A stretch of DNA of 57,647 nucleotides from Ignavibacterium sp. GTDB lineage: Bacteria > Bacteroidota > Ignavibacteria > Ignavibacteriales > Ignavibacteriaceae. Below, one piece after another: positions 11,423-53,080 of this stretch; positions within the stretch are counted from its first letter, which is position 1; each line of letters begins with the position of its first letter. A model generated the notes under the pieces. That model was given only the letters and a program-made list of their open reading frames with translations. It did no database searches and was not told where the DNA came from. Both the position numbers and the translations under genes were made by a program. Location: positions 2,182,633 to 2,240,279 of the forward strand of contig CP070637.1 of NCBI GenBank assembly GCA_020354005.1, read 5' to 3'.

Positions 11423-13213
11423 ATGAGATCAATTGTCTTCTTATTTACATTCTTGCTATCTAATAATTCCATTTTTGGTGCAGATAGTTTGGAAGTAATA
11501 AGTGTATTACCCACTCCCCAGGCAATTTCAACTGAACCGGGAGAAATTATCCAGGTTAATTTTAATATGAGAGTTGATCCACTTTCATTTAACGATTCAA
11601 CCTTTATGGTTTGGGGTAGATGGTCGGGAGTCCATAAAGGTATAATTGATTTTAACTCCATTGGAACAACAGCTTTCTTTATTCTTGAAAAGAACTTCTT
11701 TTATGGAGAGATGGTAACTGTTTCGCTATCGAAAGGAATTAAGGATGAAACCGGTAAAAATATGAAACATGGCTTCACGTGGAATTATTGGGTAAAGGTT
11801 AACAAAGGGGCTCTTGATTTGACTAAATCCGAAACAATTCAAGTTAGAGAACCCGGTGAAGGCTGGATTCAAACTTATGGTACCTATGCAGGCGATCTGG
11901 ATGCAGACGGCTGGAGCGATTTTCTTGTACCTAATGAAAGACCTAATGACGTTCGTGTATTTATGAATGATGGCGCAGGTAGTTACAGCGACTTCTCGAT
12001 TTATCGGATTAATGGAGGAGGAAGACCGAGTCCAAATGAAGGAATGGATTTTAATCTTGATGGCCATATTGATGTTGCAGTCGGTAATAGTGTAAACGAT
12101 AAATTAACAATCTTTCTTGGAGACGGCACAGGGAGCTTTTCAAGCATTCAGAATTATGTTGCTGATGATGGGGTGAGGGGTGTGGCAATTGCTGATGTTA
12201 ACGGGAACGGTTTTATGGATGTCATCACAACCAACCGGCTCGCCAGCAACGTCTCAATTTTGTTGAATAATGGAGATGGTACATTTGCATCACCTATGAT
12301 CTTCGAAGGGAATGGTGCCGGAGAAACAGGCTGCGCAACTACAGATGTTAACGGTGATGGAATACTGGATCTATTCATCGTTGCACACGGTAGTGATGAA
12401 CTGATTCTTTTTTTAGGAACAGGAGAGGGCGGATTTAGCTTCTCTGCAAAGGTTATAGTGGGGAAAGATCCATGGATGGTTGCAACCGGAGATATAAACC
12501 TGGATGGAGTGCCTGATGTGGTATCTGCAAATTCAGGTGCCTCAAACTTTTCTGTTGTGTTAGCAAATGAAGATGGAAGTTTATCTAATCCGGTAAATTA
12601 TCCAACAGGGATTTTCCCGCTAGCAATTGATCTTGGAGACATTGATGGAGATGGTGACTTAGAAGTAGTTACAAGTAATTTTGTAACTGCAGACTTTACT
12701 TTATATGAAAACGATGGCAAGGGGGGTTTTATTAATAGAAGAAATTTTGAAGCTGATTCTGCAGGAAGCTGTACCGTGCTGCACGATCGGGATAATGATG
12801 GAGATATGGATATGACTGGAATTGATGAAATGGATGATCTACTAATTCTTTTCACAAATGATAATTTTGTTAATGTGGAAGATGAAGTAAAATCACCGGA
12901 GAACTTTGTCCTTCATCAGAATTATCCGAATCCGTTTAATCCAACTACAAAAATTAAGTTTACAATTCCCACGCAAAAAAATCCCCTCCTGGGAGGGGAT
13001 TACAGGGGTGGGTTAGTAACTTTACGGGTGTTCGATATTTTGGGAACTGAAATTGCAATTCTGGTTAAAGAAGTTTTGCCCGATGGTGATTATGAAATTG
13101 AATTTGATGCGAGGGCGACCCACCCAATCGCCCTTACAAGCGGGATATATTTTTATCAGTTAAAAGCCGGTGAATCATTTATTGATGTTAAAAAAATGAT
13201 TTTGATGAAATAA
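11423..13213 (+). CDS. Type IX-secreted FG-GAP beta-propeller protein
   Basis: A 596-residue exported protein. After a signal peptide (residues 1-20) comes an Ig-like Big_5 domain (about 24-130), then seven FG-GAP/VCBS-type repeats with Ca-binding loops such as DLDADGWSD, DVNGDGILD and DIDGDGDLE (about 150-485), which would close as a seven-bladed propeller. The C-terminal sorting domain starts near residue 494 (QNYPNPFNPTTKIKFTIP) and ends SGIYFYQLKAG..KKMILMK, the type IX secretion signal. Two palindromic repeats sit in frame inside this sorting domain (12981-13000 and 13112-13134). Function is likely surface attached or released binding; the ligand is unknown. Confidence 0.9.
   Translation: MRSIVFLFTFLLSNNSIFGADSLEVISVLPTPQAISTEPGEIIQVNFNMRVDPLSFNDSTFMVWGRWSGVHKGIIDFNSIGTTAFFILEKNFFYGEMVTVSLSKGIKDETGKNMKHGFTWNYWVKVNKGALDLTKSETIQVREPGEGWIQTYGTYAGDLDADGWSDFLVPNERPNDVRVFMNDGAGSYSDFSIYRINGGGRPSPNEGMDFNLDGHIDVAVGNSVNDKLTIFLGDGTGSFSSIQNYVADDGVRGVAIADVNGNGFMDVITTNRLASNVSILLNNGDGTFASPMIFEGNGAGETGCATTDVNGDGILDLFIVAHGSDELILFLGTGEGGFSFSAKVIVGKDPWMVATGDINLDGVPDVVSANSGASNFSVVLANEDGSLSNPVNYPTGIFPLAIDLGDIDGDGDLEVVTSNFVTADFTLYENDGKGGFINRRNFEADSAGSCTVLHDRDNDGDMDMTGIDEMDDLLILFTNDNFVNVEDEVKSPENFVLHQNYPNPFNPTTKIKFTIPTQKNPLLGGDYRGGLVTLRVFDILGTEIAILVKEVLPDGDYEIEFDARATHPIALTSGIYFYQLKAGESFIDVKKMILMK
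12981..13000. repeat. Palindromic repeat inside a coding sequence (sorting domain, first loop)
   Basis: ATCCCCTCCTGGGAGGGGAT has perfect 9-bp arms around TG and is followed by TACAGGGGTGGG. It reads through in frame as NPLLGGDYRGGL between TIPTQK and VTLRVFDILG, where sorting domains usually have only a few residues. It resembles the CTCCCCTT-N3-AAGGGGAG hairpin at 42773-42793, so it looks like an inserted repeat that was kept in frame. Confidence 0.7.
13112..13134. repeat. Second palindromic repeat inside the same sorting domain
   Basis: AGGGCGA (13112-13118) and TCGCCCT (13128-13134) are 7-bp arms around CCCACCCAA. The stretch reads in frame as RATHPIAL between EFDA and TSGIYFYQLKAG, again at a loop that is normally short. 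The GGGCGACCCACC type of palindrome is a familiar dispersed repeat in many genomes (from memory). Confidence 0.65.
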
Positions 13214-23935: not shown

Positions 23936-23948
23936 TGTTTATAATTAG

Positions 23949-23968
23949 CACCTGACTTAAGTCAGGTG
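23949..23968. repeat. Perfect 20-bp palindrome, GACTTAAGTC core
   Basis: CACCTGACTTAAGTCAGGTG is perfectly self-complementary and lies between the convergent DUF5686 and PP2C genes. It is followed by TTAGCAGTTTTTC, so it could end transcription from the left. It shares the core GACTTAAGTC and flanking TTAGC/GTTA with the palindrome at 53020-53039, so it belongs to a dispersed repeat family. Confidence 0.75.
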
Positions 23969-23979
23969 TTAGCAGTTTT

Positions 23980-42772: not shown

Positions 42773-42793
42773 TCTCCCCTTGGTAAGGGGAGA
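42773..42793. repeat. Hairpin repeat, possible bidirectional terminator
   Basis: TCTCCCCTT (42773-42781) and AAGGGGAGA (42785-42793) pair around GGT. It sits between the convergent outer-membrane protein gene and the LytTR gene, followed by AAATTTATT. Its sequence type recurs in the palindrome at 12981-13000, so it is both a repeat and a plausible terminator. Confidence 0.6.
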
Positions 42794-52975: not shown

Positions 52976-53080
52976 AACCATTGAAACGGTTACTAAAATA
53001 AAGTTTCCTGTATTATTAGCCCACGACTTAAGTCGTGGGTTAATAAGAAAAAATAAAGAATGGCAACCGTTTTAACGGTT
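52976..53080. repeat. Composite three-hairpin repeat element
   Basis: Three structured units lie in line. AACCATTGAAACGGTT (52976-52991) and AACCGTTTTAACGGTT (53065-53080) are near copies of one 16-base unit; the second has 7-bp arms around TT. Between them the palindrome CCCACGACTTAAGTCGTGGG (53020-53039) is extended outwards to 53013-53046 with only one G-T mismatch. The whole resembles a REPIN-type element. It fills the convergent 313-base spacer between the FAH gene and ruvA. Confidence 0.8.

Follow-up and report, generated by a model that had tools for sequence, protein, structure and literature searches.

Several unrelated kinds of palindromic repeat appear to have landed repeatedly, and in frame, in the same few loops of C-terminal sorting domains (CTDs) of the type IX secretion system (T9SS) in an Ignavibacterium genome and its relatives, and thereby to have turned repeat DNA into protein. 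The window (the whole stretch of DNA analysed, 57,647 nucleotides) covers positions 2182633-2240279 of a single-contig genome of 2.80 Mb that is 80% complete. Two segments of one sorting domain in it are, very probably, copies of two unrelated dispersed palindromic repeats that were inserted at two of three length-tolerant loops. This explanation rests on close intergenic matches, fixed loop positions, an open frame, and different palindromes in the same loop of orthologues. An earlier note on this DNA had proposed mobile palindromes that were inserted and then kept by tolerant loops, and the analysis speaks for this reading—whereby mobility is deduced from the distribution of the copies.

The host gene encodes a Big_5 domain and FG-GAP repeats ahead of a CTD of type A (Table 1). 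Against TIGR04183, the CTD scores 23.7 bits and lies above the cut-off of 23; against Pfam Por_Secre_tail, it scores 21.7 bits and lies below the cut-off of 27, a score that is probably lowered by the loop inserts. Its sequence profile matches the T9SS CTD 8glj_D (E 1.1e-4). An AlphaFold model with a mean pLDDT of 81.3 shows six strands of 8-11 residues each (20-27, 41-49, 55-65, 67-74, 86-94, and 98-106), as befits the type A fold—a beta-sandwich of about six to seven strands. Foldseek with this model gave no match at E < 0.001; the T9SS substrate 8glk and PorU 6za2 are among its matches (E 0.0089 and 0.018). Both inserts sit between strands of the model, in loops that are taken to be L-beta2-beta3 (loop 1) and L-beta5-beta6 (loop 2) when mapped by strand order on the numbering in the accessible part of PMC11285876.

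Table 1 Features of the window; positions count from its first nucleotide.
Feature	Position	Strand	Basis or remark
ORF, 596 aa: Big_5, FG-GAP repeats, C-terminal sorting domain	11423..13213	+	ORF list, Pfam
Type A T9SS C-terminal sorting domain (CTD)	12917..13210	+	TIGR04183, HMM of 30 constant-length CTDs, AlphaFold model
Loop 1, between strands 20-27 and 41-49, widened by insert	12968..13006	+	model
Two-tier C/T-rich palindrome, class A, 42-bp run	12979..13020	+	identical in CTD L062
Class A hairpin AATCCCCTCC-TG-GGAGGGGATT	12980-13001	+	perfect 10-bp arms
Class A 3' outer arm AGGGGTGGGTT	13004-13014	+	
Loop 2, between strands 67-74 and 86-94, widened by insert	13109..13141	+	model
Palindrome AGGGCGACCCACCCAATCGCCCT (AGGGCGA-N9-TCGCCCT)	13112..13134	+	reads RATHPIAL
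Intergenic C/T-rich hairpin TCTCCCC TTGGTAA GGGGAGA	42773..42793	.	

Two palindromes had been claimed within the coding sequence, and both are present in the 596-aa ORF. The first, in loop 1, translates in frame as NPLLGGDYRGGL. A second CTD of this genome (L062, at 251896) is identical to the window over the entire 42-bp run, and an intergenic copy at 1477349 (L032) differs by eye at a few bases over ~36 bp. The proposed likeness to the intergenic hairpin at 42773-42793 holds for composition, as both are C/T-rich; that hairpin was rejected as the source of the loop-1 palindrome, being no copy of it and a poorer match than L062 and L032.

The second palindrome, in loop 2, is read from its sequence as a decayed GTAG-type repeat. 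Forms of the type GTAGGG(G)CGACC..GGTCGCCCTAC are intergenic in genomes of the same genus, and GTAG..CTAC forms lie between genes in two of them (G003 and G002). The GTAG end is missing in the window copy (GCGAGGG) and present in three of five related intergenic copies, and clear GTAG forms occupy loops of further CTDs (L039, L056, L133, L139, L142, and L150). GTAG REPs are described as palindromes of 20-40 bp with a GTAG end that often lie near RAYT genes (Di Nocera et al. 2013, PMC3733652, as far as its accessible part goes). Most likely, the loop-2 repeat would be such a REP of the kind linked to RAYT (Y1) transposases. This genome holds three PF01797 (RAYT) matches and 23 of 25 genomes are positive; at the flanks of 22 RAYT loci the CTD palindromes were not seen. 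Elsewhere, a GGGCGTA..TACGCCC palindrome lies in frame in a gene (L096:1274-1819, minus strand) with a weak Y1 transposase match (E 0.0012). Two palindromes outside the listed ORFs of the window (53013-53046 and 23946-23971) have the common core GACTTAAGTC, and CTTAAG-centred palindromes also flank the RAYT gene L255.

To place the inserts, the sorting domains were surveyed. A TIGR04183 profile search of this genome gave 68 matches; 67 other CTD places were read, of which a motif search extracted 56 and missed 11. Among those extracted, 30 are of one exact length, 24 are longer, and two are truncated. The 30 of one length provide a clean baseline for inserts, and they agree with the earlier claim that a few residues are normal at these loops. 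An 82-position HMM built from them was run on the CTDs of this genome, of relatives, and of named loci. It gave 181 unique CTDs covering at least 70 HMM positions: 57 of this genome, 18 of relatives, and 106 of named loci, the latter two sets being enriched and biased because they were found with insert-bearing queries, and this genome's set being unbiased. Of 99 inserts of at least 3 aa, 98 fall at three loops (44 at HMM positions 18-24, 42 at 54-58, and 12 at 68-71) and one falls elsewhere. This genome's 57 CTDs account for 22 such inserts, and at least 35 of them have none. Many loop inserts show no perfect palindrome. Still, the alignment of sorting domains that had been suggested as a check finds palindromes at the same loops in CTDs of the genome and its relatives. 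At the third loop (HMM positions 70-71), L119 and L142 bear the inserts PESSSGQG and NPSTSSGQ, and the L119 insert overlaps a palindrome.

Why these loops and not others can be appreciated from work on the CTDs of known T9SS substrates, here from the accessible part of PMC11285876. In P. gingivalis, L-beta3-beta4 and the C-terminus are needed for secretion; at the turn corresponding to L-beta3-beta4, no insert of at least 3 aa occurs in the 181 CTDs. In RgpB, three residues of L-beta5-beta6 were swapped for eleven, with export, cleavage, and anchoring unchanged (PMC11285876). Tolerance at loop 2 is thereby backed by experiment; at loop 1, it is backed by natural length variation only. Published CTD loop insertions—a hairpin in L-beta5-beta6 of PorU and PorZ, and extra residues in L-beta2-beta3 of mirolase—share the loops that carry extra residues with the present CTDs, and the accessible part of PMC11285876 makes no link to DNA repeats.

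Within this genome, loop 1 holds, by eye, CCCCTCC palindromes in the window and L062, CCTGCC in L018, CCCCCTTT in L069 (L058 looks decayed), CCCTCTCC with one mismatch in L063, and GTAGGGGCGTA in L039 (L055 looks decayed). Loop 2 holds, likewise by eye, GGGCGA in the window, GTAGGGGTTTGAT in L056, and CCGCCTCAGGCGG in L042; L029 and L049 resemble decayed forms. Hence, several unrelated kinds of palindrome use the same two loops in one genome. The open frame of the L069 CTD ends soon after the loop-1 palindrome; here, an insertion may have broken the frame. Orthologues of the window protein in the same genus (L115 and L116, at 68% and 67% identity) vary in the same manner. L115 has CCCTCTCCTTACCAAGGAGAGGG (CCCTCTCC..GGAGAGGG) in loop 1 and keeps the window's palindrome in loop 2. 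L116—absent from the inserts listed in the 181-CTD survey and thus adding nothing to those counts—has a CTGCC palindrome and CCCCTCCTTACCAAGGAGGGG (CCCCTCC) in loop 1 and another GC-rich segment in loop 2. A further orthologue (L117), which showed no CTD, aligns over residues 1-340 only. A peptide conserved without its palindrome had been named as evidence against insertion; such conservation is not seen, since the orthologues hold different palindromes in loop 1.

A high-copy repeat within this genome was rejected on low pattern counts: there are seven CCCCTCC palindromes, one CCGCCT (in a CTD), CCTGCC at nine separate places, and three CCCCTT, and GGGCG palindromes number five versus three for the reversed-pattern control. 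These patterns were designed from CTD inserts, so the CTD share among their copies is biased, and the unbiased comparison is a 400-kb density sample given below.

In the six genomes of the genus, the two C/T-rich classes, A and B, amount to 109 copies, 28 of which lie in CTD loop 1. Class B is the CCCTCTCC palindrome, whose whole two-tier element reads ACCTCACCCT..CCCTCTCC..GGAGAGGG..AGGGnGAGGT; it is found in 57 of 80 genomes of the family, and the reversed control once each in four. Its 44 copies in the six genomes divide into 12 in CTD loop 1 (or 11, the difference being the partial CTD L275), five in frames that run for 150 aa or more from stop to stop, and 27 labelled intergenic. The CTD share differs by genome: 3/3 in this one, 3/3 in G004, 2/3 in G001, 3/26 in G002, 1/8 in G005, and 0/1 in G003. 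The three class B CTDs of this genome stand in short open frames (52-123 aa) and look partial or broken. In both arms, most class B copies in CTDs match those between genes; the three from G002 are without the left outer arm. For class A (CCCCTCC), 16 of 65 copies lie in CTD loop 1 by peptide reading, which leaves out L351, L352, L360, and the second copy of L324; they divide into 13 of 23 in G003, two of seven in this genome, and one of six in G001. In G003, the CTD copy L335 equals the intergenic copy L326 over 39 bp by eye. A comparison of CTD inserts with intergenic repeats had also been called for, and several do match base by base.

C/T-rich palindromes are also read in frame outside CTDs. 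One (TRETPLSFIRRGAGGE) lies in the PHP domain of DnaE, the DNA polymerase III alpha subunit (L282:3-1052, minus strand). Three secreted proteins (L338, L346, and L347, with the CTD identified by Pfam in the first two and by reading in the third) have such palindromes at a single position, GFEIQR^WENIGFV, within a domain that precedes the CTD. This site is perhaps a further permissive loop in T9SS cargo.

The concentration in loops is also visible in hairpin density. GC-rich hairpins in this genome's 57 CTDs number seven in 2,772 bp of loops 1 and 2 and zero in 10,446 bp of core; for all 181 CTDs, the corresponding figures are 30 in 9,258 bp and two in 33,363 bp, with three in 3,531 bp of loop 3. 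Upstream gene bodies in the same frame, for the whole CTD set, have 46 in 188,504 bp (0.244 per kb). The CTD loops of this genome reach 2.5 per kb, ten times the upstream gene bodies and more than 20 times other coding DNA of this genome. Under one hairpin criterion, an evenly spaced 400 kb of this genome plus the window give 1.88 hairpins per kb in CTDs, compared with 0.572 between genes, 0.115 in the remaining coding DNA, and 0.074 once ORFs are codon-shuffled; the CTD value comes from five hairpins in 2.66 kb—small numbers, with two from the window, and without it three in ~2.4 kb (~1.3 per kb). As the CTD density exceeds the intergenic one, on few events, loop tolerance alone is insufficient to account for it. 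Target preference or copying from CTD to CTD is probably also at work.

Copies might thus arrive either through insertion akin to transposition or through the copying of short tracts from other CTDs, and the survivors would be those events that keep the frame and add no stop codon. In-frame events would survive because the loops take extra residues and because the CTD is only a sorting signal. At the inserts, no target-site duplication was recognised. Open frames were counted in the copies: among 107 (labelled by locus, leaving out those near contig ends or identical), none of the 26 labelled CTD is without any open frame, versus five of the 81 others. Class A copies in CTDs have 5.2 of six frames open versus 3.0 for the others, whereby the G003 copies are interrelated; for class B the contrast is small (2.7 versus 2.2). 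Of the 12 class B copies in CTDs, 11 have TTACCAA as their hairpin loop when read on the coding strand. This form is open in the frame used, and TTGGTAA, TTAATAA, or TTACTAA would yield TAA.

The main alternative is gene conversion: each genome would have received one founding insertion or a few, and most of the spread would be due to recombination between CTDs rather than to repeated insertion of mobile repeats. Junctions common to many CTDs favour it: ATTCC|nACCTC in G001 and G004, a junction that lacks the left outer arm in three G002 CTDs, and the right flank GCAGCTTGTAAAACTCGTTG, with small differences, in several G003 CTDs. The common orientation of TTACCAA and a CTD hairpin density above the intergenic one fit as well. 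However, the stop filter also predicts that orientation, and several unrelated palindromes sit in the same loops of one genome, two kinds of them in the window gene itself. Divergence adds a further constraint. Between the window and L062, none of 37 insert bases differs, versus 16 of 30 adjacent codons for the same amino acid; class B inserts of six CTDs differ at 5.6% of bases versus 44% of such flank codons. For class A in G003 (13 CTDs), the contrast is weaker, 14.1% versus 38.9%, with an insert figure that takes in bases beyond the element. The comparison, which left out L275 and L277 as the upstream motif is absent, is rough, since inserts are counted per base and flanks per codon. Inserts that vary less than their flanks either postdate the divergence of the CTDs or were copied by themselves, and conversion tracts would therefore need to end near the insert. 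Taken together, spread mainly by conversion is an unlikely though serious account, and repeated insertion of dispersed palindromes is preferred.

It is quite improbable that selection keeps the hairpins as RNA or DNA structures close to where T9SS genes end—serving, for example, mRNA stability—and that their coding is incidental. The 3'-terminal 300 bp of these genes do hold recurrent stem-loops; yet 35 or more of this genome's 57 CTDs manage without an insert of at least 3 aa, orthologues differ in sequence and loop, and the inserts of L055, L059, and L049 look decayed and unpaired by eye. Chance hairpins from GC-rich coding of Pro/Gly/Arg-rich loops, which do arise in codon-shuffled ORFs at 0.074 per kb, can practically be dismissed given 2.5 per kb in the loops versus 0.244 in upstream gene bodies and 0.115 in other coding DNA, and given CTD copies that match repeats elsewhere, intergenic ones included, over ~39-55 bp.

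What moves the repeats might be indicated by their neighbours. RAYT as the mover of the C/T-rich class was rejected, as the RAYT flanks give no support. Another family stands out: DUF559 (PF04480), which has a Vsr-like nuclease fold. All three DUF559 genes of this genome adjoin palindromes, at 156365, 1939045, 2678182, and 2678613. Flanks were compared for DUF559 loci (24 of 30 had them in full), RAYT loci (22 of 30), and 30 CTD genes. Among the 24 DUF559 loci, a hairpin lies within 130 bp of the 5' side in 17 and of the 3' side in 13; 11 have one on each side and five have none. That 13 of 24 lack two-sided flanking, and that five lack any hairpin, speaks against the proposed origin of the repeats. 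For RAYT loci, the 5', 3', and both-side counts are eight, five, and three, with palindromes other than the CTD ones; for CTD genes, they are two, four, and one. Random 320-bp spans of this genome have a hairpin on one side in 1.9% and on both in 0.1%. Read from the list, a C/T-rich palindrome stands on at least one side in 18 of 24 DUF559 loci, and 15 of the 109 class A and B copies lie within 300 bp of a DUF559 domain; the same palindrome class is thereby found at DUF559 flanks and in CTD loop 1.

In L368, L370, and L381, a DUF559 domain lies in frame inside MetH, between two B12-binding domains; L368 and L381 have a hairpin at each edge of it, and L370 has one at the 5' edge. By reading, L294 is a further case of DUF559 between the B12-binding domains of MetH with palindromes at one or both edges, and the MetH cases span genomes of three families. 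In L366:1041-2942, DUF559 stands in the same reading frame as the R subunit of a type I restriction system, with palindromes at both edges.

Most likely, DUF559 nuclease elements end in the two-tier C/T-rich palindrome that loop 1 carries, and the DUF559 enzyme may be what moves it. As a tentative and rather speculative picture, DUF559 would form a mobile element with C/T-rich palindromic termini—a counterpart of REP-RAYT—that can settle whole and in frame in housekeeping proteins such as MetH, and whose solo palindromes settle in CTD loops, where they are translated, decay, and are replaced. Both systems place a palindrome class beside the gene of a small DNA enzyme; in REP-RAYT pairs this is a Y1 transposase, whereas DUF559 stands beside the C/T-rich palindromes here.

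Palindromes in coding DNA are known from the Rickettsia palindromic elements (RPEs), reportedly described by Ogata et al. in 2000 and 2002. Like RPEs, the present palindromes are read in frame in unrelated genes, namely those of CTDs, the DnaE PHP domain, and a cargo domain. RPEs are about 150 bp long and are found in frame and translated in unrelated genes, with others outside genes (accessible part of PMC10969869). Set against that description, the present units differ: they measure 23-55 bp, belong to several families, and crowd fixed loops of one repeated domain rather than being scattered over unrelated genes. Intragenic REPs have been reported as well, with flexible linkers or loops suggested as tolerant places and with two Xanthomonas species that have copies at nearly the same site of recB (PMC3733652). 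In the accessible part of that source, sorting domains, a C/T-rich two-tier class, and the repeated filling of fixed loops were not found described. The open-access literature gave nothing, among the matches listed, that links T9SS or DUF559 to palindromic repeats. Hence, coding palindromes as such are known, and the repeated filling of fixed loops by several families, together with the DUF559 link, looks new, a novelty that is provisional.

For sorting domains, palindrome inserts may explain why some of them, like the window CTD in Pfam, score below the family cut-off. The analysis also raises the possibility that DUF559, an uncharacterised nuclease family, partners a class of palindromes; if this is true, the palindromes of DUF559 elements supply new peptide sequence to an export signal. 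More generally, the sorting domains would offer a path by which repeat DNA becomes protein sequence, and one that comes with its own replicates: the dozens of CTD copies per genome are parallel targets, which makes insertion, frame selection, decay, and turnover measurable.
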